Below, piece by piece: positions 14,704 through 62,432 of a stretch of 64,000 bases of DNA (its first letter is position 1; each line of letters starts with the position of its first letter). The stretch comes from Aureimonas ureilytica. Its GTDB lineage: Bacteria > Pseudomonadota > Alphaproteobacteria > Rhizobiales > Rhizobiaceae. The notes below the pieces were generated by a model. It saw nothing but the letters and a program-made list of their open reading frames with translations. It was not told where the DNA came from and made no database searches. The stretch lies in the NCBI RefSeq assembly GCF_001475935.1, contig NZ_LDQA01000047.1, positions 1 to 64,000 on the forward strand, written 5' to 3'. The translations under genes were made by a program, and so were the position numbers.

Positions 14704-16407
14704 ATGTATCGGTACGACGAATTCGATGAGCGCTTCGTGCGTGAGCGCGTCCAGCAGTTTCGCCATCAGGTGGAGCGCCGGCTCGACGGCTCGCTCTCGG
14801 ACGACGAGTTCAAGCCGCTGCGCCTCAAGAACGGACTCTATCTCCAGCTTCACGCCTATATGCTGCGCGTCGCCGTGCCCTATGGCACGCTGAACTCCAA
14901 GCAGATGCGCCAGTTGGCCCTGATCGCCGAGAAATACGACAAGGGTTATGCGCATTTCACCACGCGCCAGAACCTTCAGTACAACTGGCCGAAGCTGCGC
15001 GATGTCCCCGACATCATGGACCTTCTGGCCGATGTCGAGATGCACTGCATCCAGACCTCGGGCAATTGCATCCGCAACGTCACGGCGGACCAGTTCGCCG
15101 GCGTCGCGGCCGACGAGGTGGAAGACCCGCGCCCGACCGGCGAGTTGATCCGCCAATGGTCGAGCCTGCACCCCGAATTTTCCTGGCTGCCGCGCAAGTT
15201 CAAGATCGCCGTGACCGGCGCCGAGCACGACCGCGCCGCGATCAAGGTTCACGATATCGGCCTGCGCATTCTGCGCCATCCCGAAACCAACGAGATCGGC
15301 TACGAAGTCGTCGTGGGCGGCGGTCTCGGCCGCACGCCGATGGTCGGCAAGGTGATCCGCGACTTCCTGCCGAAGGCCGAACTGCTCGCCTATCTCGAGG
15401 CGATCATGCGCGTCTACAACGCGGAAGGCCGGCGCGACAACAAGTACAAGGCGCGCGTCAAGATCCTCGTCCACGAGATCGGCACGGACGAGTTCAAGGC
15501 CCGCGTCGAAGCAGAATATGCTCAGCTCAACGGCCCGACGATCAATGCGCCGGCCGAAGAGGTGGAGCGCATCGCGCGCTATTTCGCGGCCCCCGCCTAC
15601 GAGACGCTGCCCGAGACCTCTTCGGTGCTGGAGGCCGCCCGTGCGGCCGACCCCGAACTCGACCGTTTCGTGGAGCAGAACGGCTTTGCCCATCGCCAGC
15701 CCGGCTATATCGCGCTGACGGTTTCGCTGAAGCCCATCGGCGGCGTACCGGGCGACATGAGCGACAAGGAAATGCGCGCCTTCGCCGACATTGCAGAGCG
15801 CTACTCGTTCGATGAATTCCGCGTCACGCACGTGCAGAACCTCGTTCTGCCGCATGTGAAGAAGGATGACGTGCCGGCGGTCTACGCCGCGCTCAAGGCG
15901 GCGGGGCTCGCCACCGCCAATGCCGGTCTCGTTACCGACATCATCGCCTGCCCCGGCCTCGACTATTGCGCGCTGGCGACGGCCCGCTCGATCCCGATCG
16001 CGCAGGACATTTCCAATCTCTATGCCGACGAGGCCAAGCAGAAGGACGTGGGGCCGCTCCAGATCAAGATCTCGGGCTGCATCAATGCCTGCGGCCATCA
16101 CCATGTCGGCCATATCGGCATTCTCGGCCTCGAAAAGTCGGGCCGCGAGAACTACCAGATCACGGTGGGCGGCGACGCCTCCGAACACGCGGCGCTGGGT
16201 GAGCGCGTGGGGCCGGGCATCGACGCCGAGCAGGTGCCGGGTGCCATCGAGGCGTTGGTCGGCGTCTACATGAGCGAACGGCAGGCCGGCGAAACCTTCA
16301 TCGACACGGTGAAGCGCGCCGGGCTGGAGCCCTTCAAGCAGGGCTTCACCGCCTATGTCGCGGGCAGCAACGCGGCCAACGCTTCGGCGGAAGGAGCGCA
16401 CGCATGA
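14704..16407 (+). CDS. cysI: sulfite reductase hemoprotein subunit
   Basis: A 567-residue siroheme/4Fe-4S enzyme that reduces sulfite to sulfide. The two-fold repeated nitrite/sulfite reductase architecture is visible: ferredoxin-like halves around HFTTRQNLQYNWPKL and FRVTHVQNLVLPHV, each ending in a siroheme-binding region. The cluster cysteines are Cys416 and Cys422 (CPGLDYC) and Cys459 and Cys463 (CINACGHHHVGH). Ferredoxin-type nitrite reductases share the fold, but the cys neighbours and lack of nitrate genes favour sulfite. No flavoprotein CysJ is present, so the electron donor is probably ferredoxin or another reductase. The last four bases overlap the DUF934 gene. Confidence 0.93.
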   Translation: MYRYDEFDERFVRERVQQFRHQVERRLDGSLSDDEFKPLRLKNGLYLQLHAYMLRVAVPYGTLNSKQMRQLALIAEKYDKGYAHFTTRQNLQYNWPKLRDVPDIMDLLADVEMHCIQTSGNCIRNVTADQFAGVAADEVEDPRPTGELIRQWSSLHPEFSWLPRKFKIAVTGAEHDRAAIKVHDIGLRILRHPETNEIGYEVVVGGGLGRTPMVGKVIRDFLPKAELLAYLEAIMRVYNAEGRRDNKYKARVKILVHEIGTDEFKARVEAEYAQLNGPTINAPAEEVERIARYFAAPAYETLPETSSVLEAARAADPELDRFVEQNGFAHRQPGYIALTVSLKPIGGVPGDMSDKEMRAFADIAERYSFDEFRVTHVQNLVLPHVKKDDVPAVYAALKAAGLATANAGLVTDIIACPGLDYCALATARSIPIAQDISNLYADEAKQKDVGPLQIKISGCINACGHHHVGHIGILGLEKSGRENYQITVGGDASEHAALGERVGPGIDAEQVPGAIEALVGVYMSERQAGETFIDTVKRAGLEPFKQGFTAYVAGSNAANASAEGAHA

Positions 16408-16922
16408 GCCTACTCGTCACCCCCGCCGGAGAGAAGACCGACGAGTTCACTGTTATCGAGGACATGGCCGATCTGTCCCTGACCGAGGGCGCGGTTCTTG
16501 TGCCGCTCACCGTCGTCGACCAGGCCCTCGCCGACCGGCGCAACGCGCCCTTGGGTCTGGCGGTCGCGGGCGACACGCCGGTCTGCGCCGTCGAGCCCTA
16601 TTTCGGGCAGGTGGAGCTGATCTCGGTTCGCTTTCCGTCCTTCTCGGACGGGCGCGGTTTCTCGCTTGCCAAGCGCCTGCGCCGCGCGGGCTTTTCCGGC
16701 ACGCTGCGCGCCAGCGGCCCGCTGATCGCCGATCAGTTCGCCGAGGCGCTGGCCTGCGGCTTCGATGAAGTCTGGCTGCCGGACCAGATGGCCGAGCGCC
16801 AGCCTGTTGACCAGTGGATGAAGGCCAAGGACATCGTCCGCGACCATTACCAGACCGGCTATGGCGAGGATCAGAGCATCCTGCAGAAGCGCCTCGCCGC
16901 CCGCGCGGGAGAGGCCGCATGA
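16404..16922 (+). CDS. DUF934 protein of the sulfate-assimilation operon
   Basis: A 172-residue protein that overlaps both neighbours by four bases (ATGA at each end), so it is tightly coupled to cysI and cysH. The family core is seen as VEPYFGQVELISVRFPSFSDGRGFSLAKRLRRAGFSGTLRASG, followed by LIADQFAEALACGFDEV. DUF934 is found almost exclusively beside cysI/cysH in proteobacteria. It has no redox cysteine cluster and no known reaction; a helper role in sulfite reduction is inferred from this conserved context. Confidence 0.88.
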   Translation: MSLLVTPAGEKTDEFTVIEDMADLSLTEGAVLVPLTVVDQALADRRNAPLGLAVAGDTPVCAVEPYFGQVELISVRFPSFSDGRGFSLAKRLRRAGFSGTLRASGPLIADQFAEALACGFDEVWLPDQMAERQPVDQWMKAKDIVRDHYQTGYGEDQSILQKRLAARAGEAA

Positions 16923-17698
16923 GCGCCGAGCTCGCGCAGGACCTCAACGACAGCTTCGCGGGCCTCAAGCCCGCCGAGCGGCTGCGCCTTTTGACGGAGC
17001 GCCTGCCCGGCCGCATCGTCTTCACCACCTCACTCGGCATCGAAGACCAGATGCTCACCCATCTGATCTTCCGCGAGAAGCTGGCGATCGACGTGGTGAC
17101 ACTCGACACCGGCCGCCTGTTTCCCGAGACCTACGCTCTCTGGCAGCAGACGGAAGAAACCTATGGCCGGCGCATCAAGGCCAAGTATCCGCAGGCCGAA
17201 GCTCTCGAAGCGCTGATCGACGATCAGGGCATCAACGGCTTCTATTTCGCGCCCGAAATGCGCAAAGCCTGCTGCGGCGCGCGCAAGGTGGAGCCGCTCG
17301 GCCGCGCCTTGGCGGGTGCGTCGGGCTGGATCACGGGCCTGCGCCGCGACCAGTCGGCCAATCGCGAGCGGCTCGACTTCGTGTCCTTCGACGGCGCGCG
17401 CGGCCTGATCAAGGCCAACCCGCTCTTCGACTGGACGCGCGAGGAAATCCGCGTCTTCACCGTGGATAACGCCGTTCCGGTGAATCCGCTGCACGATCAG
17501 GGCTTCCTGTCCATCGGATGCGCCCCTTGCACCCGCGCCATTCGCCCCGGCGAGGTCGAGCGGGCGGGCCGCTGGTGGTGGGAAGAGGAAACCAAGCGCG
17601 AATGCGGCCTGCATGTGGACGAGGCCGGCCAGCCCGTGCGTGCCGAGGATGGCCGCCCCGCCCCCGGCGACAGCGCCTTCGAGACAATTCCCTCCTGA
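16919..17698 (+). CDS. cysH: adenylyl-sulfate (APS) reductase
   Basis: A 259-residue enzyme reducing activated sulfate to sulfite with thioredoxin or glutathione. The start at 16919 overlaps the previous stop. The PP-loop region is TTSLGIEDQM, and the active-site cysteine lies in the C-terminal KRECGLH motif. Cys118-Cys119 (ACCGARK) and Cys201/Cys204 (GCAPC) form the 4Fe-4S site that marks APS reductases as opposed to PAPS reductases. This agrees with the absence of an APS kinase (cysC) gene or domain in the operon. Confidence 0.93.
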   Translation: MSAELAQDLNDSFAGLKPAERLRLLTERLPGRIVFTTSLGIEDQMLTHLIFREKLAIDVVTLDTGRLFPETYALWQQTEETYGRRIKAKYPQAEALEALIDDQGINGFYFAPEMRKACCGARKVEPLGRALAGASGWITGLRRDQSANRERLDFVSFDGARGLIKANPLFDWTREEIRVFTVDNAVPVNPLHDQGFLSIGCAPCTRAIRPGEVERAGRWWWEEETKRECGLHVDEAGQPVRAEDGRPAPGDSAFETIPS

Positions 17699-17809
17699 TC
17701 GGCCCGTCCTGATCGGCCGCTTCTGACAGGCCCTGCCTGACTGGACCGCGCCGACCTATCCCCCTTCTCAGCCGCGCCCGCGCTTGCCGGGCGTCAAAGG
17801 TCCCCTGCC

Positions 17810-18712
17810 ATGAAGCACATGACCCATCTCCAGAGCCTCGAGGCGGAGTCGATCTACATCATCCGCGAAGTGGCGGCGACGGCCGAGAACCCGGTGATGC
17901 TCTTCTCCATCGGCAAGGATTCGATGGTCATGCTGCATCTGGCACGCAAGGCCTTCGCGCCGGGCAAGCTGCCCTTCCCGCTGCTCCATGTCGATACGAC
18001 CTGGAAGTTCCGCGAGATGATCGAGTTTCGCGACCGCATCGCGCGCGAATGGGATCTCGACCTTATCGTTCACACGAACGAAGAGGGCTTGAAGGCCGGC
18101 ATCAACCCGTTCGATTCCGGCTCGCGCCTTCACACCGACGTGATGAAGACCGAAGGGCTGAAGCAGGCGCTCGGCAAGTACAAGTTCGACGCGGCCTTCG
18201 GCGGCGCGCGGCGCGACGAAGAGAAGAGCCGCGCCAAGGAGCGCGTCTTCTCGCTGCGCTCGGCCGAGCATCGCTGGGAGCCCAAGAACCAGCGCCCCGA
18301 GCCCTGGCACCTCTTCAACACCCGCAAGCGCCAAGGCGAAAGCTTCCGCGTCTTCCCCTTGTCCAATTGGACGGAGGCGGATGTCTGGGACTATATCGCG
18401 CTGGAAGATATTCCCGTCGTGCCGCTCTACTTCGCCAAGCATCGTCCCGTGGTCTCGCGCGACGGCACGCTGATCATGCGCGATGACGAGCGCATGAAGC
18501 TGAATGAGGGCGAGGCGACATCGGACGAGCTGGTGCGCTTCCGCACGCTCGGCTGCTACCCGCTGACGGGCGCAGTGCGCTCCACCGCCACCACGCTGCC
18601 CGAGATCATCGCCGAAATGCGCGCCTCCCGCTCGTCCGAGCGCGAGGGCCGCGTGATCGACCGCGACGGCGGCGCCTCCATGGAAGAAAAGAAGCAGGAA
18701 GGGTATTTCTGA
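17810..18712 (+). CDS. cysD: sulfate adenylyltransferase subunit 2
   Basis: A 300-residue catalytic subunit of ATP sulfurylase, which makes APS from sulfate and ATP. The PP-loop is residues 33-38 (SIGKDS), followed by HLARKAF. The family motifs [40 protein letters not shown] and [12 protein letters not shown] are all present. It ends one base into cysN (TGATG arrangement), and the C-terminus [10 protein letters not shown] is typical. A 111-base gap after cysH contains nothing recognisable, and the genes are probably one operon. Confidence 0.96.
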
Positions 18713-20502
18713 TGTCCATCGCACGCCCTTCCTCCGCAGAAGCCGACGCAACTTTGGACAATGTGACCAACGGCACCGCGCTGGCCGAGGACCAGACCTT
18801 TGCCGGTCCGGCGCCTGACGAGGCCCCGCTCGACCCGACGCTCGGTGCGGTGAAGCAGGCCGACCTGCGCGCGCAGGCCGCCGCCGTGGCCGCTGCCGGG
18901 GCCAAGGCCTCGCTTCTGCGCTTCATCACCTGCGGCTCGGTGGACGACGGCAAGTCCACGCTGATCGGCCGGCTTCTGTTCGACACCAATTCCGTCTTCG
19001 ACGACCAGATGGAAGCGCTTCAGCGCGACTCCAAGAAGTTCGGCACCACGGGCAGCGATCTCGACTTCGCGCTTCTGGTGGACGGTCTCTCGGCCGAGCG
19101 CGAGCAGGGCATCACGATCGACGTCGCCTATCGCTATTTCAACACCAAGAACCGCGCCTTCATCATCGCCGACACGCCGGGGCACGAGCAGTACACCCGC
19201 AACATGGCGACCGGCGCGAGCCAGGCCGAACTCGCCATCATCCTTGTGGACGCGCGCAAGGGCATCCTGCCCCAGACGCGGCGTCACTCCTTCATCACCT
19301 CCATGGTCGGCATCAAGTCGGTCATCGTGGCGGTGAACAAGATGGATCTGGTGGAGTTCGACGAGAGCGTCTTCAACGAGATCGTGAAGGGCTATCAGGC
19401 GCTTCTGCCCCATCTCGGCTTCACGGATGTCCGCTACATCCCGCTCTCGGCCAAGAACGGCGACAATCTCGCCGAGCGCTCCGTCCATACGCCCTGGTAC
19501 AAGGGGCCGACGCTGCTCGAAACGCTGGAAGTCGTGGAGCCGCAGACCTTCGCGGCCGGCTCGCCGCATTTCCGCCTGCCGGTGCAATGGGTGAACCGCC
19601 CCAATCTCGACTTCCGCGGCTTTTGCGGCACGGTGGCGGGCGGGCGCATCTCGCAGGGCGACGCCATTCTCTCTCTGCCAAGCCGCAAGCGCTCCACCGT
19701 CAAGGCCGTCTATGGGCCGAACGGGCAGGTCGAAAGCGCCGAGGACGGCGAGGCGATCACACTGACGCTGGCCGACGAAATCGACGCCTCGCGCGGCGAC
19801 GTGCTGGTCAAGGTCGGCGACCCGATCGCCGCGCACCGCATTCTCCACGCTGAGATTTTGTGGATGGTGGACCGTCCGCTGATCGCGGGCGGGCGCTTCG
19901 TCGCCAAGCTTTCGACCGCGCAGACGCCGGTGAACGTGCGCTCGCTGGACGAGGCGGTGGACATCCATTCCTACCAGCCGCGCCATGCCAACGCCCTTCT
20001 CATGAACGAGATCGGCCGCGTCACGCTGCAGTTCGACAAGCCACCGGTGGCGACGCTTTATTCGGAAAGCCGCGAGCTGGGCGCCTTCATCCTGATCGAC
20101 CCGCTGACCAACGAGACGGTGGCGCTCGGCATCGTGACCGGCCTGCCGCGCGAAGGTGAAGCCCCGGCCGCGAGTGCGTCGCGCCCCGGCGCGGCGTCCG
20201 CACCCGCCGCAGCCGCCGCCACCGCGCCGCGCACCCGCTTCGAGCAGGTCAAGGCGGAATGGCTCGGCCCCGCGCTCAGCGCCGACCCGGAGCGGGCGCG
20301 CGGCGTCACGATCTTCCGCGCCATGGCGGCCATCCTGATCGGTCTCATCGCGTTGCTCCTGGGCTTGGCGCTCTGGAAGGCGATCATTCTCGGCGCGCTG
20401 GACTTCGCGCTGCGCCCGCTTCTGCGCCGGCTCATGGTGCCGGCCGAAACCGAAGTTGCGGTGGTGGACCCCAGCACCGTGCGCGACGGCGAGGGCATCT
20501 GA
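18712..20502 (+). CDS. cysN: sulfate adenylyltransferase subunit 1 with a hydrophobic C-terminal extension
   Basis: A 596-residue GTPase subunit that drives APS synthesis with CysD. GTPase motifs: G75-SVDDGKST, D154-TPGH and N209-KMD. Translation-factor-like barrels follow, including PHFRLPVQWVNRP and LVKVGDP. The catalytic part ends near residue 490. Ordinary CysN stops about there, and CysNC fusions carry an APS kinase; this one has neither. Instead there is an Ala/Pro-rich linker, then a helix-like segment (FEQVKAEWLG), a hydrophobic stretch at about residues 538-562 long enough to span the membrane, and a charged tail. The N-terminal 60 residues are also longer than usual. The stop overlaps the next small gene by one base. 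Confidence 0.93.
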   Translation: MSIARPSSAEADATLDNVTNGTALAEDQTFAGPAPDEAPLDPTLGAVKQADLRAQAAAVAAAGAKASLLRFITCGSVDDGKSTLIGRLLFDTNSVFDDQMEALQRDSKKFGTTGSDLDFALLVDGLSAEREQGITIDVAYRYFNTKNRAFIIADTPGHEQYTRNMATGASQAELAIILVDARKGILPQTRRHSFITSMVGIKSVIVAVNKMDLVEFDESVFNEIVKGYQALLPHLGFTDVRYIPLSAKNGDNLAERSVHTPWYKGPTLLETLEVVEPQTFAAGSPHFRLPVQWVNRPNLDFRGFCGTVAGGRISQGDAILSLPSRKRSTVKAVYGPNGQVESAEDGEAITLTLADEIDASRGDVLVKVGDPIAAHRILHAEILWMVDRPLIAGGRFVAKLSTAQTPVNVRSLDEAVDIHSYQPRHANALLMNEIGRVTLQFDKPPVATLYSESRELGAFILIDPLTNETVALGIVTGLPREGEAPAASASRPGAASAPAAAAATAPRTRFEQVKAEWLGPALSADPERARGVTIFRAMAAILIGLIALLLGLALWKAIILGALDFALRPLLRRLMVPAETEVAVVDPSTVRDGEGI

Positions 20503-48792: not shown

Positions 48793-48869
<77 letters not shown>

Positions 48870-48912
48870 CCAAGACCTTCGGCCAAAGCCTCCGGCTATC
48901 CGTTCTATACAA

Positions 48913-48989
<77 letters not shown>

Positions 48990-52010: not shown

Positions 52011-52284
52011 GACGACTCCCTGAAAAGCGTGGCCGCAGCCACGGGGAAACACAGAGCTAGGCGACAGCCCGGAGCCGGCAACCGATTTCGTCGGCAAAAT
52101 GCAGGTTGGCCTTACGAAGCCACCGGCCGCTGCCCTTCAGACGGGAGGCTTCGCAGCCAGCGACGTGACTCTCTTCGAGCGGCGAGAACAGGCGCGAGAA
52201 GGGCGGCAACGCCCTGCTCGATCGGAGTGCGGCGAGCGAGATAAGCCGTTGCCCTCCGCAGGCGGCTCCTGCGAGAGGCCCCGC

Positions 52285-55200
52285 TCAGGCGGGCGCGCCG
52301 GCCGCCTCCCCCTTGCTCGCCTCCCGCTCCGCCGTGTCCCGCGCGCGGCTTTCGGCCACCAGCCCCTTCAGCGCTTGATCGAGCCGCACGGTCGCGCCCA
52401 TCGGGTCGAACCACCAGTCGGTGGACCAGACGCGCAGGATATTCCAGCCCAGGCCCCGCAGCACCTGCTCGCGCACCTTGTCGCGGTCGCGGGCCGTGGC
52501 CGAGCGGTGATAGGTCGCCCCGTCGCACTCGACGCCCGCCAGAAACGCGCCGGCATGGTCAGGATGACGGATGGCGAGATCGACGCGGAAGCCGGACACG
52601 CCGACCTGCGTCACCATCTGCCAGCCGCGCCGCGAGAGCGCCTCGGCCACCGCCGCCTCGAAGGGCGATTCGACGCCGCCGAGCGAGCCCTGATCCGTGG
52701 CGGGCAGCGCCACCGCGCCCCGGTCGGCATAGTCGAGGAAGGTCTTGAGATGGCGCACGCCCGCCGCCTTGGAGCGCGACAGGTCGATCGATTCGGCCTT
52801 GATCGAGGAGACGATCTGCAATTCCTGCCGGGCGCGCGTCACCGCCACGTTCAAGCGCCGCTCGCCGCCCTCCCGGTTCAGCGCGCCGAAATCCATCGCG
52901 AGCTTGCCGGCCGCGTCCTTGCCGAAGGTCATGGAGAAGAGGATCACGTCGCGCTCGTCGCCCTGCACGTTTTCCAGATTCTTGACGAAGACCGGCTCCA
53001 GCCGCTCATCCTCGAAGAACCATTCGAGCACGGGATCGTCGCGCCGCTCCTGATCGAGGAGATCCTGAATCAGGCCCTGCTGCTGGCTGTTGAAGGTGAT
53101 GATTCCGAGCGTCGGCCGCTGGGCCTCCGGCAGGCCCAGCGCGGCGCGCAGACGGTTCGCCACATCCTTCGCGATGGCGCGCGCCTCGGCCGGATTGGTG
53201 CGGCTCTTGCCCCGGTCGTAGACGGCATCGGGCAGATGACGCAGCGATACGGCGCGGTCCTGCGTCACCGGCGAGGGGAAGGTGATCAGCCGGTTGTCGT
53301 AATAATGATGGTTGGAGAAGGCGATCAGCGATTCATGGCGCGAGCGATAGTGCCAGCGCAGATCGTGCACCGGCAGGCCGGAGGCCTTGGCCTCGTCCAG
53401 AATGCTTTCCAGATCGCGCTCGAACTCGGGCGCTTCGTCCTCCGTCTCGGTGCGGCCGAAGAAATTGGTCGGCGGCAGCTGCTTGGGATCGCCCACGATG
53501 ATGGTCTGCCGGCCGCGCGCCACCGCGCCGACCGCATCCCATGTCGTGATCTGCGAGGCCTCGTCGAAGATCACGACATCGAACAAGGCTTGATCGGGCG
53601 GGAGATATTGCGCGATCGAGAGCGGCGACATGAGAACGCAAGGCGCAAGACGCGCGAAGCTTTCGGGCATGGCGCCGATCATCTCGCGGATCGAGCGGCT
53701 GGGGCGCTTCAGCTCCATCTGATGGCGCAGGAGGCCGAGTTCGGACTTGCGCGGCACCGATTGCGGATCGGGCAGGCCGTGGGCCAGCGCCTCGCGGATG
53801 CGCTGCGAGGCCGCCTTGCGCACGAGATCGTCCAGCTTGCGGAAATCGTCGATCGCGTGCTCATGGCTGAAGCGGCGGAAATCGCGAAGGCGCGGGTCAG
53901 CGTCGATGGCGAGCGGCAGCCACCAGCGGGCATAGGCGAGCGCGAAGGCGGCGCGCGCTTCGCCCGGCCGCACCGCGCCGCTTTCCAGATCGGCCACGAG
54001 TGGAGCCAACCCCTCGGCCAGCGCGCGGCGGCGAATGGCGCACCAGGACGTCCAGTCGCGCAGGAGGCCCGCGCTGGCACCCAGATCGGCGAGCGCGGCG
54101 GACACGCTGTCCAGCGTTTCGCCTTGCGCCGCGCCGAGCGGCACGCCGCCGCTGACCTCGCGCCATTGGCGCTCGGCCTCCAGCCAGCCCGCCTCGGCCT
54201 CTTCAAAGGCGCGGGCGGCCTCGCTGAGCGGGCTCGTCTCGGTCAGCTCCGGCAGCGCGCGCAGGAGAGCGGCGACGATGGCACCCGTTTCCCCCGTCGG
54301 CTCGCCCAGACGCATCACGGCGGCGCGCAGTTGCTCGGCCGAGACGAGGCTGGCGGACAGGCGCGGAAGGTCGCTGTCGATCCCGGCAAAGCCCTTGAGC
54401 CGCCCGGCGAGCGGGCTCGCCCGCACTTGGGCCGCGACGGCCTGCATCCGGCGCAGGATCGGCAGGTCACTCGCCGGAACGGCCGTGCCCGAGCGGGCAT
54501 AGGTCTGGAGCAGCTTGGCGACGCCGCGCCGCTTGAACCAGGAGAAGGGCCAGAAGCTGGCCCCGGCCTCGCGCAGACGGCGGTCGAGATCCTCCACCGG
54601 AATGCGCGCCATCTCCTCGCGCTCATAGGTGGCCGAGAGGCGCGATTCTTCCGTGCGGAAGGCCGAGACGGCGGCTTCCAGCGCGCCGAAGTTCTCGCGC
54701 AGCTCCGCAAAGCCGGGGTCGAAGGCGAGCGCGCCCTCGCCCGGCTTCAGAGCGGCCGCCAGCGCGGCGAGGCGGCGTGCGTCGGGAACGCTGAAGGATC
54801 CGGCCGGGGCCATGCCGATGCGGGCGCGAAGCGCCGTGGCGGCCTGCGCCAGCGCCTCGGCCGCCTCGCGTGCGGCGCGCGCCTGCGCCAGGAGGCGCTC
54901 GGCCCAGGCGGAGGTCCATTCGTCCACATCCACCAGCGCGAGGCTCGGGCGCGCTTCGACGGCGGCGATGGTGCGGCCCAGCCCCTCGGCGAGGTCTTCG
55001 AGCGCGGCGTAATGAGCGGCCTCATGCTGGTCCAAGGCGGGCCAGGAAAGTGCGGGCGCGTGCTGCTCGGCCCCGCGCAGCGTCACGCCCATGGCGCGAT
55101 AGGGCGTCCAGCCGCAGCGCGCCTCGCGGTGCAGCGCCTCGGCATAGCTGTTCAGCGCGTCGCGCTGCACCTTGAGCCGGCCGTTCAGCTCCACCCAATC

Positions 55201-57534
55201 CCCGCTTCGCGCCGCGCCGCTTTCCCAGGCGCTGCGCAATTGGCTGAGGAAGTGCCGCCGGTCGGCCTTGGAGGAATGAAGCTCCAGACAATGCTCGCCG
55301 AGCCCATGCTCGCGCAGGCGGCGATACACGACATCGAGCGCGGCGGTCTTCTCCGCGACGAACAGGACCGTGCGCCGATGCGCGAGGCAATGGGCGATCA
55401 TGTTGGCGATGGTCTGGCTCTTGCCCGTGCCCGGCGGGCCGATCACCACGAAATCCTTGCCCTCGGCCGCCGCCAGCGTCGCGACGATCTGCGAGGAATC
55501 GGCCGGCAGCGGCGTCACGATGTCGGCCGGGGCATAGGCCCGGTCGATCTCGCGCGCCTCGCGGAAGGGCACGGGGTCGGCGAAGGCCTCTTCGGGCGTG
55601 TCGATGAGATGGCGCACGACGCGGTTCTGGCGCAGCGCGTCGGTGCGCTCCGTCAGGTCCTTCCACATCAGATATTTGGCGAAGGAGAAGGTGCCGAGCG
55701 CCGTCTCGTCCACCACCTCGAAGCCCGGCACGTCGCGCACCGCCTGACGCATCCGCGACAAGACGTCCGCCACGTCGATACCGGTCTCATCAGTGGGCAG
55801 CTCGCCTTGGAGCGAAGGCACTTTCAGGCCGAAATCGCGCTCCAGAAACTGGAGCAGCGTCGCGTTGAAGCGGATATCGTCCTCGTGATGCACGAGGCGG
55901 AAGGGCGAGGAGGCGCTGCGGCGCTCCAGCTTGGCCGGCAGAAGCAGAAGCGGCGCGCGGTAGACGCGCTCGTCCTCGGGCTTCTTCTTCCAGCGCAGGA
56001 AGCCGACCGCGATATAGAGCGTGTTGGTGCCGCCCTCGGCCATGTCGCTGCGCGACTGGCGAAACAGCGCGGTGAGCCGCGCTTCCAAGGTCTTCTGGTC
56101 GAGGGTGGAGGCCAGTTCGCCGCGCGCCAAGGCGTCGGCCGCAAAGCGCGCCTGCAAGTCCTCGCCGCGCGTTTCGCGAAACAGCGTCTCGTCGCGCTCG
56201 CCGACAGGATTCTGCTCGGGAATGGAGACGAGGCGCATGGCCCCGCCCGCCGCCAGCCGATCCTCCAGCGCGGCGGCGTCCGGGCAGAGGAAGGGCACGG
56301 TCGAGCCGGTCTGGCTGAAATTCAGGAGCTTGTTGCGCAGGGAGAGATCGAGGAGCTTGCGCTGCCAGCGATCGATGCGCCCGCCCGGCGTCGTCGGCTT
56401 GTCCTCGACGCTTTCCGCCGGCATCGCACCGAAATCGGGCATGGCGGGCAGGGCCGGCGCGGCGGGCTCGGCGCTTGGTTCCGCCTCGCCCGGTGCGGCG
56501 GGGTCGTGCGAGGCGAGCGGCTGGATGCCGCCGCTGCGCGAGCGCGCCACATCCACCGCGCAGACAAAGGCGCGGCGCGCGCCCTCGGCCAGAAGCGCCG
56601 CGCCGTCGCGACAGGCCTGCTCGAAGCCCATGGCCGGCCGAAAGGTCACGCCCGTCGTCTCGAACACCAGAAGCTCGCGCCCGGCCAGCGCCTTGCGCAG
56701 TTCCATGGCGTCCGTCTCCACCGCGCGCGGCAGGGTGCGCTTGGAGAGCCAGACGCCGACGGCCGCATGGCCCGAAACGAAGACGACCACGGCGTTCAGC
56801 CCCGCCGCCTCCAGCGCGGCGGCCAGAAGCAGACTCGTGTCGAGGCAGGTGGCGAGCCCGTCGCTCAGGGCGCTCGCCGGGCGGCGGATCTTTTGTCCGC
56901 GCTGCTCGAAGCTCGCGGGCGGCTCGGCATAATGCAGCCCAAGCCCGGCGACGCTCGTGTAGAGCGCGGCGGCCAGCATATAGGCGCGCCTGACATCGCC
57001 GCTTTGATAGCCGTCCATCGCGCCGGAATGGCCGTGCGCCACCAGCATATCGGCCGCCGCGCGCAAAATCTTCGCGGTGGCCGGATCGTTCGGCATGACG
57101 AAGGCGGGCAGAAGCTGGGCCATGTCGCCCGCCCCGCCCCATTCGTCGCGCGCCAGAAGCCGGATGGGCCGGACCGTCTCGGCCAGCATCTCATCGCCGC
57201 GCGTTAAGCGAAAGCGAAGCTCGCCGCGCTCGGCCTCGTTCAGCCCCGCGAGATAGGCGGCGTCCAGTTCCACGCGCCGGTCGCCGAGCGCCAGCGTCTC
57301 GCCCGGCCCGAGACGATCGATCGCCCAGTTCTTCGGCCGCAGGAACGGCGGCACGGAGGACAGCTCCAGCCGCAGCCCGTCCAGCGTCTCGGGGCCGGGA
57401 TGGTGGAGCGCGAGGCTTGAGAGAAGAGGCACGGCGTTCTGGAACGAGGCGTAGGTGAGGCTTTCGCGCGCCTCCACCGCAATCTCCGGCCGCAAGGCAT
57501 CCTCACCCTCGACGCCTTCGGTCCCGTCCATCAT
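52285..57534 (-). CDS. DUF4011 superfamily I helicase with C-terminal Vsr-like nuclease
   Basis: A very large (about 1749-residue) protein. The N-terminal part carries a transglutaminase-like region (CLDTSLLLAAALEAAGLNAVVVFVSGHAAVGVWL) and the DUF4011 segment (IDRWQRKLLDLSLRNKLLNFS). The helicase motor has Walker A VIGPPGTGKSQTIANMI (about residue 698), Walker B DVVIFDEASQI (about 1320), and late motifs VQGDERDVILFSMTFGKD and RRLNVAVTRARQELQIV. The end is a Vsr/MTES-1575-type nuclease, VSGFRVDLAIRHP with GVECDGATYHRS (about 1670), then RDRDKVREQVLRGLGW. The start is 57534 (GAGGG upstream); 57540 is possible. Such single-polypeptide proteins are candidates for phage defence or DNA repair; none is established here. 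Confidence 0.9.
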   Translation of the reverse strand: MMDGTEGVEGEDALRPEIAVEARESLTYASFQNAVPLLSSLALHHPGPETLDGLRLELSSVPPFLRPKNWAIDRLGPGETLALGDRRVELDAAYLAGLNEAERGELRFRLTRGDEMLAETVRPIRLLARDEWGGAGDMAQLLPAFVMPNDPATAKILRAAADMLVAHGHSGAMDGYQSGDVRRAYMLAAALYTSVAGLGLHYAEPPASFEQRGQKIRRPASALSDGLATCLDTSLLLAAALEAAGLNAVVVFVSGHAAVGVWLSKRTLPRAVETDAMELRKALAGRELLVFETTGVTFRPAMGFEQACRDGAALLAEGARRAFVCAVDVARSRSGGIQPLASHDPAAPGEAEPSAEPAAPALPAMPDFGAMPAESVEDKPTTPGGRIDRWQRKLLDLSLRNKLLNFSQTGSTVPFLCPDAAALEDRLAAGGAMRLVSIPEQNPVGERDETLFRETRGEDLQARFAADALARGELASTLDQKTLEARLTALFRQSRSDMAEGGTNTLYIAVGFLRWKKKPEDERVYRAPLLLLPAKLERRSASSPFRLVHHEDDIRFNATLLQFLERDFGLKVPSLQGELPTDETGIDVADVLSRMRQAVRDVPGFEVVDETALGTFSFAKYLMWKDLTERTDALRQNRVVRHLIDTPEEAFADPVPFREAREIDRAYAPADIVTPLPADSSQIVATLAAAEGKDFVVIGPPGTGKSQTIANMIAHCLAHRRTVLFVAEKTAALDVVYRRLREHGLGEHCLELHSSKADRRHFLSQLRSAWESGAARSGDWVELNGRLKVQRDALNSYAEALHREARCGWTPYRAMGVTLRGAEQHAPALSWPALDQHEAAHYAALEDLAEGLGRTIAAVEARPSLALVDVDEWTSAWAERLLAQARAAREAAEALAQAATALRARIGMAPAGSFSVPDARRLAALAAALKPGEGALAFDPGFAELRENFGALEAAVSAFRTEESRLSATYEREEMARIPVEDLDRRLREAGASFWPFSWFKRRGVAKLLQTYARSGTAVPASDLPILRRMQAVAAQVRASPLAGRLKGFAGIDSDLPRLSASLVSAEQLRAAVMRLGEPTGETGAIVAALLRALPELTETSPLSEAARAFEEAEAGWLEAERQWREVSGGVPLGAAQGETLDSVSAALADLGASAGLLRDWTSWCAIRRRALAEGLAPLVADLESGAVRPGEARAAFALAYARWWLPLAIDADPRLRDFRRFSHEHAIDDFRKLDDLVRKAASQRIREALAHGLPDPQSVPRKSELGLLRHQMELKRPSRSIREMIGAMPESFARLAPCVLMSPLSIAQYLPPDQALFDVVIFDEASQITTWDAVGAVARGRQTIIVGDPKQLPPTNFFGRTETEDEAPEFERDLESILDEAKASGLPVHDLRWHYRSRHESLIAFSNHHYYDNRLITFPSPVTQDRAVSLRHLPDAVYDRGKSRTNPAEARAIAKDVANRLRAALGLPEAQRPTLGIITFNSQQQGLIQDLLDQERRDDPVLEWFFEDERLEPVFVKNLENVQGDERDVILFSMTFGKDAAGKLAMDFGALNREGGERRLNVAVTRARQELQIVSSIKAESIDLSRSKAAGVRHLKTFLDYADRGAVALPATDQGSLGGVESPFEAAVAEALSRRGWQMVTQVGVSGFRVDLAIRHPDHAGAFLAGVECDGATYHRSATARDRDKVREQVLRGLGWNILRVWSTDWWFDPMGATVRLDQALKGLVAESRARDTAEREASKGEAAGAPA

Positions 57535-57715: not shown

Positions 57716-58468
57716 GTGTTTGGCACGGAGCTTGCACTTCAGTCTTGTATGCAAGATCGCCCCTCTCTCCCGTCCCCCTCCGCCGCCATCGACGCCGTGA
57801 TTCTGCGCTCGATCCTGGCGCGCCGTCTGCGCCCCGGCGCGCGGCTGGGCGAAGGGGAACTGGCGAGCCTGTTCAACGTGTCGCGCACCCTCGTGCGCGA
57901 GGCGCTGATGCGGCTGGCCTCGCGCCATATCGTGGAGGTGCGCTCGCGCCGGGGCTGGTTCGTGGTGGAGCCCTCGTCGACCGAGGCCAAGCGCGTCTTC
58001 GAGGCGCGCCGCGCCGTGGAGGCCGGCATGATGCGCATCATGCCGGCGCTGGAGCCCGAGCATCTGGCGCTCCTCCAGACGCATCTGAGCGACGAGCGCG
58101 CCGCCATGGCGGCGGGCGATCATCCCCGCCTCGTCTGCCTGATGGGCGACTTCCACATCCGGCTTGGCGATATCGTGGCCAATCCGGTCCTCAGCGAAAT
58201 CCTGCGCGACCTCACGGCCCGCACGATCCTGATCTCCATGCTCTACCAGTCCACGACCCATGCCGAGGAATCGCATCTCGGCCATTGCCGCATCGTCGAG
58301 GCGCTGGCGCGCGGCGACCGGCTGGCCGCGTCCGACCTCGCCATCCGGCATCTCGACGAGGTGGAAGCCGGCCTCGATCTCGACATCGCGGCCGACCCTC
58401 TCGCCGATCTCCGGCGCTCGCTCGACCCCACGGGCGCCCTCGCCTCACCCGCTTTTTCTACACTCTGA
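57716..58468 (+). CDS. GntR/FCD-family regulator of the amino-acid ABC operon
   Basis: A 250-residue regulator (from the GTG at 57716, preceded by AAGG; an ATG at 57749 is an alternative without a ribosome site). The winged helix reads LRSILARRLRPGARLGEGELASLFNVSRTLVREALMRLASRHIVEVRSRRGWFVVEP. The FCD effector domain has the metal-binding His pattern in FHIRLGDIVANPVLSEI, with HLGHCRIVEALARGDRLAASDLAIRHLDEVEAGL near the end. It ends 13 bases before the binding-protein gene, so the regulator and transporter probably form one operon. Confidence 0.9.
   Translation: MFGTELALQSCMQDRPSLPSPSAAIDAVILRSILARRLRPGARLGEGELASLFNVSRTLVREALMRLASRHIVEVRSRRGWFVVEPSSTEAKRVFEARRAVEAGMMRIMPALEPEHLALLQTHLSDERAAMAAGDHPRLVCLMGDFHIRLGDIVANPVLSEILRDLTARTILISMLYQSTTHAEESHLGHCRIVEALARGDRLAASDLAIRHLDEVEAGLDLDIAADPLADLRRSLDPTGALASPAFSTL
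57743..57756. promoter_or_regulatory. candidate GntR/FCD operator
   Basis: TCTTG-TATG-CAAGA, perfect 5-bp arms around the alternative start codon of the regulator gene. It resembles the short TTGTATNCAA-type sites bound by FCD regulators. If the ATG at 57749 is the true start, it covers the transcription start region and would give autoregulation. Confidence 0.4.
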
Positions 58469-58481
58469 AGGACCCTGCCTC

Positions 58482-59270
58482 ATGATCCATCGTCGCTCGC
58501 TTCTCGCCGCCGGCCTCGCGCTCGCCGGGCTCGTCTCGCTGGCCCTGCCGGCCTCGGCCGATGCCCTGTCCGATATCGAAAGCCGTGGCACGCTGCGGGT
58601 CGCCGTGCCGCAGGACTTCCCGCCCTTCGGCTCGGTCGGCACCGACATGACCCCGCAGGGCTACGACATCGATGTCGCCAAGCTCATCGCCGAGAAGATG
58701 GGTGTGAAGCTCGAGCTGACGCCCGTCACCTCGGCCAATCGCGTGCCCTTCCTCCAGACGGGCAAGGTCGATCTGGTGATTTCCTCGCTCGGCAAGAACC
58801 CGGACCGCGAGAAGGTGATCGACTTCTCCACCGCCTACGCCCCCTTCTACAACGGCGTGTTCGGCCCGGCCGACATCCAGGTGAAGGACGCAGCGGAACT
58901 GGCCGGCAAGACCATCGGCGTCACGCGCGGCTCGGTCGAGGATCTGGAGCTGACCAAGGTCGCGCCCTCCGACGCCACCATCAAGCGCTATGAGGACAAT
59001 AACGGCACGATCTCGGCCTTCCTGTCGGGCCAAGTGCCGCTGGTCGCCACGGGCAACGTGGTCGCCGCCGCGATCATCGAGCGCAACCCGCCCAAGCGCC
59101 CGGAGCTGAAGTTCCTGATCAAGGATTCGCCTTGCTATATCGGCCTGCCCAAGGGCGCCGACGCGCTGAAGGCCAAGGTGGACGCCATCATCGCCGAGGC
59201 CAAGAAGGACGGCGCGCTGAACGCCATCGCCCAGAAGTGGCTGAAGACCGACCTGCCGGCCGGCCTGTAA
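58482..59270 (+). CDS. amino-acid ABC transporter substrate-binding protein (family 3)
   Basis: A 262-residue periplasmic receptor with a signal peptide (about residues 1-26, ending PASADA). Family 3 features: IESRGTLRVAVPQDFPPFGSVGTDMTPQGYDIDVAKLIAEKMGVKLELTPVTSANRVPFLQTGKVDLVISSLGKNPDREKVIDFSTAY. The Arg in TSANRVPFL and the Asp in the domain-2 motif are the usual amino-acid-binding residues. Specificity cannot be assigned. A stable stem-loop follows the stop, before the permease genes. Confidence 0.93.
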   Translation: MIHRRSLLAAGLALAGLVSLALPASADALSDIESRGTLRVAVPQDFPPFGSVGTDMTPQGYDIDVAKLIAEKMGVKLELTPVTSANRVPFLQTGKVDLVISSLGKNPDREKVIDFSTAYAPFYNGVFGPADIQVKDAAELAGKTIGVTRGSVEDLELTKVAPSDATIKRYEDNNGTISAFLSGQVPLVATGNVVAAAIIERNPPKRPELKFLIKDSPCYIGLPKGADALKAKVDAIIAEAKKDGALNAIAQKWLKTDLPAGL

Positions 59271-59285
59271 TCCGACACCGACCCG

Positions 59286-59319
59286 AAAGGCGATCCGCTC
59301 TTCGTGGCGGGTCGCCTTT
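59286..59319 (+). terminator. intra-operon stem-loop after the binding-protein gene
   Basis: Arms AAAGGCGATCCGC (59286-59298) and GCGGGTCGCCTTT (59307-59319) pair over 13 positions with one G-T pair, with an 8-base loop. Such hairpins after ABC binding-protein genes act as partial terminators or protect the upstream mRNA so that more receptor than permease is made. Confidence 0.65.
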
Positions 59320-59325
59320 GCCGTT

Positions 59326-59356
59326 CTCGTTCAGCTTCCTGTCTCGTTCAGCTTCC
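59326..59356 (+). repeat. short direct repeat before the permease gene
   Basis: CTCGTTCAGCTTCC occurs at 59326-59339 and again at 59343-59356, three bases apart, in the leader of the first permease gene. Function unknown; it may be a slip duplication. Confidence 0.8.
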
Positions 59357-59370
59357 AGAGGCCCGGCCTC

Positions 59371-60042
59371 ATGCCCTATCAGTTCGACTTTTCCTGGCTG
59401 GCCCCTTACGCGCCGGCGCTTCTCAACGGCGTGCGGGTCACGCTTCAGCTCATCTTAGTGGGCGGCACGCTGGGCATTCTCGTCGGCATCGCCTGCGCCT
59501 GGGTCCGCGCGCTCGGGCCCAAGGCGCTGCGCTGGCCGGTCTCGGCCTATGTCGAGATGATCCGCAACACGCCCTTCCTGATCCAGCTCTTCTTCATCTT
59601 CTTCGGCCTGCCGGGCCTCGGCATCCAGATGGACGAGATGAGCGCGGCCTATCTCGCCATGACGATCAATCTCGGCGCCTATGCCTGCGAGATCATCCGC
59701 GCCGGCATCGAGGCGACGCCCAAGGGCCAGTACGAGGCGGGCGCGAGCCTCGCCATGACGCGCTGGGAAACGTTCCGCCATGTCGTGCTCGTGCCCTCGC
59801 TCCAGCGCATCTGGCCGGCGCTCTCCTCGCAGGTGGTGATCGTGATGCTCGGCTCGGCCGTGGTCTCGCAGATCGCGGTCGAGGATCTGACCTTCGTCGC
59901 CAATTTCATCCAGTCGCGCAATTTCCGAGCCTTCGAGACCTATCTCGTCTCCACCATCATCTATCTCGCGCTGGCCATTCTCGTGCGCCGCGCCATGGGG
60001 CTTCTCGGCTCGGCCCTCTTCCCCAAGCGGAGGCCCGCATGA
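59371..60042 (+). CDS. amino-acid ABC transporter permease 1
   Basis: A 223-residue inner-membrane permease of the polar amino-acid (His/Glu/Gln) type with about five hydrophobic helices. Family loop: EMIRNTPFLIQLFFIFFGLPGLG and the EAA motif AGASLAMTRWETFRHVVLVPSLQRIWPALSSQ. The end overlaps the second permease by four bases (ATGA). It is separated from the binding-protein gene by about 100 bases containing a hairpin. Confidence 0.93.
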   Translation: MPYQFDFSWLAPYAPALLNGVRVTLQLILVGGTLGILVGIACAWVRALGPKALRWPVSAYVEMIRNTPFLIQLFFIFFGLPGLGIQMDEMSAAYLAMTINLGAYACEIIRAGIEATPKGQYEAGASLAMTRWETFRHVVLVPSLQRIWPALSSQVVIVMLGSAVVSQIAVEDLTFVANFIQSRNFRAFETYLVSTIIYLALAILVRRAMGLLGSALFPKRRPA

Positions 60043-60698
60043 TCGAGTTCTCGACCTGGGACATCCTGCGCAACCTGCTTCTGGCGGCGCGCTGGACGGT
60101 GGTTCTCTCGCTTGTGTCCTTCGCGGGCGGCGGCCTTGTCGGCCTTCTCGTCCTGTTCGGGCGCATCTCGCCGCGCAAGGCCATCCAGCGCGCGGCCAAG
60201 GCCTATATCGAGCTTCTCCAGGGCACGCCGCTCCTGATGCAGCTCTTCCTGATCTTCTTCGGGCTCGGCCTGTTCGGCGTGAACGTGCCGGCCTGGCTCG
60301 CCGCCGGCTCGGCGCTGACGCTCTGGAGCGCGGCGTTCCTGGCCGAAATCTGGCGCGGCTGCGTGGAATCGGTCTCCAAGGGCCAGTGGGAGGCCTCCGC
60401 CAGCCTCGGCATGGGCCGGCTCCAGCAGATGCGCCATGTCATCCTGCCCCAGGCGCTCCGGGTCGCCGTGCCGCCCACCGTCGGCTTCTCGGTGCAGGTG
60501 GTGAAGGGCACGGCGCTCACCTCCATCATCGGCTTCACCGAACTCTCCAAGGCCGGGACGGTGGTCACCAACGCCACGTTCCAGCCCTTCACCGTCTATG
60601 GCCTCGTCGCGCTCATCTATTTCGCGCTGTGCTGGCCGCTCTCCAAGTCCTCGCAGATCCTCGAAAGGAAGCTCAATGTCGCTCATCGCGGTCACTGA
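60039..60698 (+). CDS. amino-acid ABC transporter permease 2
   Basis: A 219-residue partner permease; its ATG overlaps the previous stop. Motifs: IELLQGTPLLMQLFLIFFGLGLFGVNV and the EAA loop EASASLGMGRLQQMRHVILPQALRVAVPPTVGFSVQVVKGTALTSIIGFTELSKAG. Its last 23 bases overlap the ATPase gene. The two permeases probably form a heterodimeric channel. Confidence 0.93.
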   Translation: MIEFSTWDILRNLLLAARWTVVLSLVSFAGGGLVGLLVLFGRISPRKAIQRAAKAYIELLQGTPLLMQLFLIFFGLGLFGVNVPAWLAAGSALTLWSAAFLAEIWRGCVESVSKGQWEASASLGMGRLQQMRHVILPQALRVAVPPTVGFSVQVVKGTALTSIIGFTELSKAGTVVTNATFQPFTVYGLVALIYFALCWPLSKSSQILERKLNVAHRGH

Positions 60699-61407
60699 GG
60701 TCAAAAAGCGCTTCGGCTCGAACGAGGTCCTGAAAGGCATCAATCTCGACGTCGCGCCCGGCGAGGTCATCGCCATCATCGGCAAGAGCGGCTCGGGCAA
60801 GTCCACCTTGCTTCGCTGCATCAACGGGCTGGAATCGATCGACGGCGGCTCGATCCTGGTCGCCGGCGCGCAGCTTCTGCCCGACGAAACGCATCTGAAG
60901 GCGCTGCGGCTGAAGGTCGGCATGATCTTCCAGCAGTTCAACCTGTTTCCCCATCTCACGGCCGGACGCAACGTGATGCTGAGCCAGACCGTAGTGAAGA
61001 AGGTGCCCAAGGCCGAGGCGGAGGCCATGGCGCGCCGGCAGCTGGAGCGGGTCGGGCTGGGGCACAAGTTCGACGCCTATCCCGACGAGCTCTCGGGCGG
61101 CCAGCAGCAGCGCGTCGCCATCGCCCGCGCGCTCGCCATGCAGCCGATCGCGCTTCTGTGCGACGAGATCACCTCGGCGCTCGACCCCGAACTCGTGGCC
61201 GAGGTTCTGGCCGTGGTGCGCGAACTCGCCGCCGAGGGCATGACGCTGATGATGGTGACGCACGAGATGAAGTTCGCCCGCGAGGTCGCCTCGCGCGTCG
61301 TCTTCATGCATGAGGGCCGCGTCCACGAGATCGGCCCGCCGGAAGAGCTGTTCGGCAACCCCAAGACGCCCGAGCTTCAGCGCTTCCTCGGCCACGGGCA
61401 GGCGTGA
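60676..61407 (+). CDS. amino-acid ABC transporter ATP-binding protein
   Basis: A 243-residue ATPase. Walker A is IIGKSGSGKSTLLRCINGLE, the signature ELSGGQQQRVAIARALAM, Walker B ALLCDEITSALDPELV, and the switch His is in MMVTHEMKFA. AAGGA lies six bases before the ATG at 60676, inside the end of permease 2. This is the GlnQ/HisP-type subfamily of polar amino-acid importers. Last gene of the operon. Confidence 0.95.
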   Translation: MSLIAVTEVKKRFGSNEVLKGINLDVAPGEVIAIIGKSGSGKSTLLRCINGLESIDGGSILVAGAQLLPDETHLKALRLKVGMIFQQFNLFPHLTAGRNVMLSQTVVKKVPKAEAEAMARRQLERVGLGHKFDAYPDELSGGQQQRVAIARALAMQPIALLCDEITSALDPELVAEVLAVVRELAAEGMTLMMVTHEMKFAREVASRVVFMHEGRVHEIGPPEELFGNPKTPELQRFLGHGQA

Positions 61408-61526
61408 GGCCGCGCCGGCGGAGGCGATAGGGGCAGCTTGCTATTTCGAAGGCCTTCGGGCCAAGAGCGGGGCGCGCGGGATCGACCCGCCCGCACGCTC
61501 CCGCCCGATGCCCGAAAGAGCCTGAT

Positions 61527-62432
61527 ATGACGGATACCCAGCCTCGCCTTGCCGTCAGCCTCCTGATGCTGCTGTCGCTGGCGACGCTCTGGGGCGCGTC
61601 CTATTCCTTCATCAAGCTCGGTGTCGCCACCATTCCCCCGGTGACGCTGATCGCGGTGCGCACGCTGATCGCCGGTAGCCTGCTTCTGGTCATCCTGCGC
61701 CTTCGCGGCCTTCGCCTGCCGACCGACCGGCGCAACACCAAGCGCTTTCTGATCCAGGCGGGGCTCAACACAGTCGTGCCCTTCACGCTCGTCGCCTGGG
61801 GTTCGCAATACGTGGATGCCGGGCTCGTCACGATCCTGAACTCGCTGACGCCCGTCTTCGCCTTTCTGATCAACGCGCTCGTCACGCGGCACGAGGCTGT
61901 GACGGGTCGTAAGCTCGTCGGCGTCCTGTTGGGGCTTCTCGGCATTTGCCTGGTGATCGGCCCGTCCGCGCTCGGCGGGTTGAACGAGGCGCTTCTGGCG
62001 CAAGGCGCCATCGTGTTCGCCGCCGTCGCCTATGGCGCGGCCGTCACCTTCGGGCGCACGTTCCGCGATCTCGACCCGATGATGCCGGCGGCGGGCTCTC
62101 TCCTCTGGGGCGGGATCGTGCTCCTGCCTTTCAGCCTCGTGCTCGACCACCCGTGGACGCTCGCGCCCTCGCAAAGCTCCATCCTGGCGCTGCTGGCGCT
62201 CTCGGTCTTTTCCACCGCGCTCGCCTTCGTTCTCTATTTCAATCTCCTGTCGCGCATCGGCTCGATCGGCACCACGGCGCAGGCCTACCTGCGCGTTCCC
62301 ATCGGCGTCGGCATCGCCATGGTGTTCCTCGGCGAGGTGCCGCAGCCCAGCGCCTGGGTCGGGCTCGTCTTCGTCATCGCCAGCGTCGTGATGATGACCC
62401 TGCCCGCCCGGCGACTTGCCCGCACAGCCTGA
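61527..62432 (+). CDS. EamA-family (DMT) transporter
   Basis: A 301-residue membrane protein with ten hydrophobic helices in two EamA repeats. The first repeat has LLSLATLWGASYSFIKLGVATIPPVTLIAVRTLIAGSLLLVIL and GLNTVVPFTLVAWGSQYVDAGLVTILNSLTPVF; the second has LALLALSVFSTALAFVLYFNLLSRIGSIGTTAQAYLRVPIGVGIAMVFLGEVP. Such proteins export amino acids or other metabolites. It follows the ABC operon after 119 bases and precedes the parS site. Confidence 0.9.
   Translation: MTDTQPRLAVSLLMLLSLATLWGASYSFIKLGVATIPPVTLIAVRTLIAGSLLLVILRLRGLRLPTDRRNTKRFLIQAGLNTVVPFTLVAWGSQYVDAGLVTILNSLTPVFAFLINALVTRHEAVTGRKLVGVLLGLLGICLVIGPSALGGLNEALLAQGAIVFAAVAYGAAVTFGRTFRDLDPMMPAAGSLLWGGIVLLPFSLVLDHPWTLAPSQSSILALLALSVFSTALAFVLYFNLLSRIGSIGTTAQAYLRVPIGVGIAMVFLGEVPQPSAWVGLVFVIASVVMMTLPARRLARTA

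Follow-up and report, generated by a model that had tools for sequence, protein, structure and literature searches.

A ProA-family protein of Aureimonas ureilytica without the DUF3320 tail: a candidate anti-phage helicase-nuclease whose tailed relatives often adjoin Mre11/Rad50-like genes

Introduction

The eukaryotic protein Dna2 works together with MRX/MRN in the resection of DNA ends. In bacteria, giant proteins of the layout discussed here, for which a transglutaminase domain is also named, were proposed in 2013 as likely modification-independent defence proteins; the available passages of that paper describe giants of the MTES_1575 type that carry, besides, a HEPN domain and two wHTH domains overlapping DUF3320, and propose the C-terminal wHTH domains as the part that recognises invading DNA (PMC3710099). 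Since the layout was described in those passages, this kind of protein is already known. A DUF4011 gene has been reported in every P. aeruginosa isolate, that is, as a core gene, flanking a defence hotspot (PMC10250203, available passages). Among the literature matches listed, a paper naming ProA was not located, and the available passages of PMC10586767 do not mention it; Prometheus is the name of a defence system (PMC12629846 and PMC12390725, in the parts available), and it is a guess that ProA belongs to it.

The DNA considered here, called the window, is the whole stretch of 64,000 nucleotides that was analysed, positions 1 to 64,000 of contig NZ_LDQA01000047.1 of Aureimonas ureilytica. 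Three things are new in this analysis: the Cys-His-Glu triad, invariant in 80/80 aligned relatives, the form of the protein that lacks the C-terminal tail, and the Mre11/Rad50-like pair that adjoins the gene in relatives.

The proA-type gene and its family

The gene occupies a single intact frame:

52285..57534, minus strand: proA-type gene, ATG at 57534, 1749 codons, stop end at 52285

In an alignment of three upstream regions, ATG 57534 is the start common to the window, A. ureilytica (L022) and G013 (L163), and both ATG 57540 and the mechanically assigned GTG 57726 are unconserved; residues are numbered from ATG 57534. The dN/dS of the gene is 0.13 in the comparison with A. ureilytica and 0.22 in that with G013, and therefore the window protein has been kept by selection. 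The GC3 is 0.88, and that of the neighbouring genes is 0.76-0.93. By dN/dS and GC3 this is a real coding gene, and the single polypeptide that an earlier note on this DNA placed at 52285-57534 is borne out as an uninterrupted minus-strand frame ending at 52285. A plus-strand frame antisense to proA (52099-57207, 1702 aa) was rejected as a GC shadow whose codon-position GC mirrors that of proA, and it matches no Pfam family above cut-off.

The protein passes the threshold of the NCBIfam model antiphage_ProA (NF058533) with 2069.1 bits against a cut-off of 1500, in an alignment that spans model positions 1-1723 of 1903. Among the PADLOC models it matches PDC-S37 with 1187 bits and Hhe with 523 bits.

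Domain architecture and conserved residues

The chain is divided as follows, all parts being on the minus strand:

57148..57501, minus strand: N-terminal beta-sandwich domain, from the predicted structure and a fold search
56527..57147, minus strand: likely transglutaminase-like (Cys peptidase-like) domain, from its triad and a profile comparison
55843..56358, minus strand: DUF4011 domain, Pfam match (E 7.3e-47 in one scan, 2e-45 in another)
52804..55491, minus strand: predicted SF1B Upf1-like helicase, from Pfam AAA_11/AAA_12, motifs and a fold match
55417-55440, minus strand: Walker A motif GPPGTGKS of the helicase, K705 in 80/80 rows
53761..55218, minus strand: mostly helical insertion in the helicase, about 485 residues, bounds judged from the model
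53560-53565, minus strand: DE box of the helicase, D1324-E1325 in 80/80 rows
52369..52662, minus strand: MTES_1575 / Vsr-like nuclease, Pfam E 3.7e-33
52519-52533, minus strand: nuclease motif VECDG, with E-C-D-G in 80/80 rows
52285..52368, minus strand: short C-terminal tail, 27 aa beyond the nuclease, in place of the DUF3320 region

Conservation was read from a family alignment of 80 rows, from which L037, L051, L062 and L070 had been left out beforehand as incomplete. The earlier note had described a single protein that joins DUF4011 to an SF1 helicase and a Vsr-like nuclease, with intact Walker motifs, and all of this stands: Pfam finds DUF4011 (E 2e-45), AAA_11/AAA_12 and MTES_1575 (E 3.7e-33), and GPPGTGKS is present with its lysine conserved in 80/80 rows. 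In a fold search the helicase matches Upf1, Ighmbp2 and Dna2 (for Upf1, VIA Z 23.2, rmsd 4.9, 431 aligned), and as modelled it has the Upf1-like SF1B fold, together with motifs I and II. Its insertion holds the least conserved blocks of the alignment, the first 50 residues of the protein aside. At the other end of the scale, the nuclease positions E1626, E1669 and D1671 are found in 80/80 rows and D1652 in 76/80, and C1670 and the glycine of the E1669-C-D1671-G motif are likewise invariant (80/80).

The structure model of residues 12-468 has a mean pLDDT of 84.9. The N-terminal fold search matched the beta-sandwich alone (residues 3-117), with Spo0M among the best (VIA Z 10.4, rmsd 2.8, 107 aligned) and other sandwiches, including those of factor XIII and glycosidases, tied with it within Z 1. 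The transglutaminase-like character that the earlier note had given to the N-terminus held in part: the Pfam Transglut_core match of the window protein lies below cut-off (E 0.18), and the reading is carried instead by the triad, by profile comparison and by predicted secondary structure. The triad consists of C230, H256 and E292 (codon starts 56847, 56769 and 56661), each in 80/80 rows. An hhalign comparison with a profile of 21 transglutaminase-core domains from the relatives' genomes scores 25.4 with the Cys and His in register, at a single-comparison E of 0.0027 and a probability of just 11%; among the controls, 20 column shuffles score no more than 18.7 and six other regions of ProA no more than 14.9. 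In the model, a helix begins at the Cys, a strand begins at the His and another strand stands just ahead of the Glu. That order, helix-Cys, strand-His and strand-Glu, is the one known for the transglutaminase fold. Among 59 N-termini searched at E 1 or better, Transglut_core is matched by 5 (best E 0.01) and DUF553, which is transglutaminase-like, by 10 (best 0.019); DUF6197, a family of unknown function, is matched most often (18, best E 0.0019), which counts against the transglutaminase reading. When the N-terminal profile was searched against PDB sequences, no relative emerged, the best match having an E of 0.14. Taken together, these weak-to-moderate lines make a transglutaminase-like domain likely. 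Since the catalytic positions are invariant or nearly so over the 80 rows, all three enzyme-like parts look active, as judged by their residues.

A triad so strictly kept is also what would be expected of abortive infection, in which the helicase would sense phage DNA and the transglutaminase-like protease would be the toxic effector that halts the cell, and the available passages of the 2013 paper do suggest that cleaving proteins may serve as an additional layer of defence (PMC3710099). The nuclease positions are, however, just as invariant, the protein target is purely hypothetical, and a second type found in 4/21 genus genomes begins directly at DUF4011, so that in this type the protease-like part is dispensable; abortive infection is accordingly held to be improbable.

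A form without the C-terminal tail

In 62/80 rows the chain runs 197-279 aa past the nuclease, and in both long-tailed rows scanned Pfam confirmed DUF3320 in the tail. The remaining 18/80 rows, which include all 7 Aurantimonadaceae rows, end at most 51 residues past the nuclease; one of these short rows (L046) runs into a contig end and is possibly cut, which puts the tail-less rows at 17-18/80. On the family tree (a quick tree with a midpoint root) tail presence needs 8 changes whether L046 is kept or dropped, and 7 once four long-branched rows are omitted as well. DUF3320 was found at E 0.001 neither in the window protein nor in its 99% complete genome, and a tblastn search of the window with the tail, for a DUF3320 region encoded apart, gave scattered weak matches only, with E values from 0.012 upward. 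The window copy is thus a form without the C-terminal DUF3320 (wHTH) region.

If DUF3320 is the part that recognises DNA, as in the view of 2013, the Aurantimonadaceae lineage manages without it. Strong purifying selection in the absence of DUF3320 implies that recognition resides elsewhere, or that the tail has another job, such as docking the Mre11/Rad50-like pair discussed below.

Distribution across genomes, plasmids and viruses

Within the genus, 9/21 genomes have a protein above the ProA cut-off: 5 of the window type (G000, G009, G013, G017 and G020, at two loci) and 4 of the second type (G005, G011, G012 and G019). The latter has DUF4011 at its very start and lacks the transglutaminase-like part; it is a DUF4011 helicase-nuclease of about 1870-1907 aa (L175, L176, L177 and L178). 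Both of the proteins scanned singly lie above the cut-off, and all four do when neighbouring matches are included, so that two architectures go under the one NCBIfam name. Of 297 genomes sampled from the order, 37 have a match with an E of 1e-200 or below and 17 are taken as window type, defined by a match that begins at model position 12 or earlier. The presence/absence comparison proposed in the earlier note therefore gives a patchy picture, with the window type in 5/21 genus genomes at two loci, and not universal conservation at one locus; the window gene is an accessory gene. The Aurantimonadaceae copies lie in three unrelated neighbourhoods (G000/G017/G013; G009/G020; Antarcticirhabdus with a MAG), and their seven proteins form one clade on the tree.

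Among plasmids, 327/72,556 records match at E 1e-50, 233 of them from Klebsiella, and 64 span at least 80% of the protein. The full-length matches listed come from rhizobial and similar plasmids, so that other DUF4011 helicases may account for many of the remaining records. Among 50,697 phage records there is one match, and 6 viral contigs match as well. On a Bosea plasmid (L219:8046-13804) the annotation splits a ProA relative in two, with one gene for an N-terminal part and another for a DUF3320 protein. Two rhizobial plasmids carry, about 5-6 kb from ProA, a cassette of a multiubiquitin-domain gene, a ThiF adenylyltransferase gene and a DUF6527 gene (L216:74-2697, L218:167-2515), possibly a bacterial ubiquitin-like conflict system.

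Relatives on rhizobial plasmids could exclude rival plasmids, and no modification gene stands alongside the window proA, two points which would suit a factor directed against plasmids or other mobile elements instead of phages. The NCBIfam name, however, says anti-phage, and an anti-plasmid role is considered quite improbable.

Genomic setting in the window

The neighbours of proA in the window are MFS, LysR, DUF3617, GntR and ABC-transporter genes, and among the neighbours scanned neither a defence gene nor a modification gene was recognised beside it. Of the accessory surroundings described in the earlier note, the tandem tRNA-Met genes at 48793-48989, 3.3 kb from the gene, were confirmed, as was the lack of a partner gene among its immediate neighbours in the window; the recombinase/IS debris was not, since none of 26 frames scanned, 25 of them within 45.9-52.3 kb, has a Pfam recombinase or transposase match. 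Both tRNA-Met genes read CAT, and no mobile-element gene was recognised alongside them.

In G013 the gene has MFS-LysR on one side and the 62545 gene on the other, as in the window, without the intervening GntR-transporter block. In the window this block of GntR and ABC-transporter genes (57716-62432) lies between proA and the 62545 gene, and in G013 it is on another contig. In the stretches from G003, G005, G006, G012 and G014, which are without the window-type gene, the left flank lies apart from the right one, and hence no clean empty site was seen in any of the five. Close relatives keep the window-type gene stably, with host-like composition.

Around the relatives, a scan for defence islands compared two sets of 113 frames. 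The near set was sampled from the 335 frames within 3.5 kb, using the 308 that encode 150 aa or more; the far set came from the 241 frames at 6-9.5 kb, of which 150 were drawn and mostly short ones then removed by hand. The best 25 of 242 PADLOC families matched near the gene include type I and III methyltransferases, a specificity subunit, GajA, HamB, Cas1, Cas8g, PDC-S02, PDC-S20 and GlgB; the best 25 of 93 in the far set include REase_I, MTase_II, RTasRmuC, PD-T4-6, PDC-S01, mad6 and RtcR. Near and far genes are not clearly separated by these matches.

Mre11/Rad50-like partner genes of relatives

In 4 of the 5 plasmid relatives inspected (among 15 listed), a gene annotated as DNA repair exonuclease adjoins ProA. 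In three of those four the exonuclease adjoins a large gene annotated as YhaN family, AAA ATPase or DNA-binding protein, and in the fourth, a Sinorhizobium plasmid (L216), Rad50-like matches to the ATPase profile lie in pieces either side of an IS21 element (15179-20285). One partner exonuclease was compared with the PDB and matches Mre11 at E 6.7e-11; in NCBIfam, sbcd is matched under its cut-off by 4/4 partner exonucleases and Mre11 models are matched by 3/4. The conserved His/Asp positions of the exonuclease family, which are the metal-binding positions of Mre11-like enzymes, are kept in 27-29 of 29. The partner ATPases are of two kinds, of about 1160 aa and about 880-900 aa. Single ATPases match no PDB relative and, at E 1e-4, none of the NCBIfam models of SbcC/Rad50; for profiles built from 13 and 11 sequences the best PDB match is Rad50 (E 2.4e-5 and 3.6e-8). 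Among the 29 loci where an ATPase was matched, our own patterns find an N-E-x-G-K motif in 25 and an LSGG-like one in 12; a CxxC zinc hook was seen in few.

The Mre11-like and Rad50-like pair is adjacent in 22 of the 60 scorable rows, the other 20 of the 80 being unscorable owing to contig ends. It lies downstream on the same strand in 9, upstream and divergent in 5, upstream on the same strand in 7 and downstream and convergent in 1, an arrangement that changed at least 10 times on the tree. Partial partners were scored as none: a weak exonuclease piece of 44 bits (L040), a pair starting 3.6 kb away (L080) and an exonuclease 3.5 kb away (L075). When the neighbours were clustered (335 frames from 72 loci, after removal of 9 near-duplicate or family loci), the families of the pair occurred in 11, 9 and 8 loci and the next family in 3, so that the Mre11/Rad50-like families are the only ones above 3 of 72 loci; in the far control (6-9.5 kb, 241 frames, 63 loci) families reach 2 loci at most.

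The pair occurs in 0/11 tail-less rows, with the window row entered by hand as partner-less, and in 22/49 tailed ones (Fisher p 0.0046); under a first, different criterion the counts were 0/10 and 18/44 (Fisher p 0.021). The tree offers 4 independent pairs, with 0-2 of them agreeing in direction, or 10, none differing in tail. These are too few, and the link between the tail and the partner pair is therefore suggestive only. In the window itself no adjacent exonuclease and ATPase cassette is found, the neighbours of proA being DUF3617 and GntR, and a search of its own genome with one partner exonuclease, which as a single query is weak evidence, gave no match. The window copy must consequently act solo or with host proteins encoded elsewhere. 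Among the literature matches listed, mostly from non-subscription literature, no title or abstract joins ProA to Mre11/Rad50, and these partner genes appear under-described.

These neighbours fit repair or defence alike. If the protein were mainly not a defence protein but a Dna2-like factor for the repair and resection of host DNA ends, the Mre11/Rad50-like partners would process blocked ends and the solo forms would use host end-processing enzymes. The adjacency of the pair in 22/60 rows, as the sole neighbour families above 3 of 72 loci, speaks for such a role, and so do Dna2 among the structural matches and the purifying selection on the window gene. On the other hand, the window type is missing from 16/21 genus genomes and from most of the order sample, some members are plasmid-borne, and NCBIfam curates the family as anti-phage; repair as the main role is considered unlikely.

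Proposed function

The best explanation, with a probability of roughly 0.6, is that the window protein belongs to the ProA family of anti-phage proteins, as a solo form that lacks DUF3320, and acts by a helicase-nuclease mechanism. The matches to ProA and PADLOC, the invariant catalytic positions, the patchiness, the three loci in Aurantimonadaceae and the matches on plasmids and viral contigs support this reading; the lack of a defence gene alongside, the stable host-like state in close relatives and the P. aeruginosa DUF4011 gene reported as core in the available passages of PMC10250203 count against it. That the layout recurs among predicted phage-defence genes, as had been claimed for it, agrees with the 2013 proposal (PMC3710099, available passages), the NCBIfam family and the PADLOC matches. 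The defence reading of the earlier note has survived on those same grounds (ProA, PDC-S37/Hhe, the 2013 passages) and on the patchy occurrence in 5/21 genomes, and has lost the recombinase/IS debris. The domain content, the conserved catalytic positions, the purifying selection, the accessory distribution and the partner genes of relatives are observations; from them we infer defence by the window protein, and with it phage as the target, DNA as the substrate, a 5'-to-3' polarity and protease activity.

The anti-phage mechanism would run as follows. The Upf1/Dna2-like SF1B motor would load onto foreign or damaged DNA at a free end or a single-stranded stretch and translocate with ATP, presumably 5'-to-3', and the C-terminal Vsr-like nuclease would cut the DNA that the motor feeds to it. 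The transglutaminase-like Cys-His-Glu domain would most likely be a protease that frees an autoinhibited nuclease or cleaves a second target. The closest functional analogy may be Dna2 with MRX/MRN in end resection, turned to defence.

A more tentative and rather doubtful extension is that ProA is the helicase-nuclease arm of an Mre11-Rad50-Dna2-like immune complex. The pair would find DNA ends and dock through DUF3320, ProA would resect and destroy the DNA, and the protease would control the switch; loss of the tail would go with loss of the partners and lead to autonomous single-gene forms, such as the window copy. The Mre11/Rad50-like pair in any case ties a catalogued anti-phage helicase-nuclease to the machines that process DNA ends, in a way that can be tested.

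Comparison with known systems

Of the known systems, NF058533 antiphage_ProA is matched above its curated cut-off over model positions 1-1723; the window protein differs in lacking positions 1724-1903, the region that bears DUF3320 in relatives and that the cut-off does not demand. The phage-defence candidate PDC-S37 of PADLOC is matched over residues 450-1804 of the 1813-aa frame (1187 bits, a score not judged against the PADLOC cut-off), but this match excludes the transglutaminase-like part. Hhe (NF042953) aligns with the helicase and the nuclease at 776.1 bits, which is far below its cut-off of 2000 bits and places the window protein outside that family.

With the MTES_1575-type giants, as the available passages of PMC3710099 describe them, the window protein has in common the union of an SF1 helicase with a Vsr-like nuclease in a single chain, together with a likely transglutaminase-like domain; in contrast to them it has no wHTH/DUF3320 region and no detected HEPN domain (none by Pfam at E 0.1, a scan that a divergent HEPN could escape), and at its N-terminus a beta-sandwich is predicted. 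Finally, Dna2 with MRX/MRN resembles this protein in uniting an SF1B helicase and a nuclease in one chain, and the relatives of the window protein adjoin Mre11/Rad50-like genes; it differs in that the nuclease of the window protein is C-terminal and Vsr-like, in the extra protease-like domain and in the partner genes, which are absent from the window.
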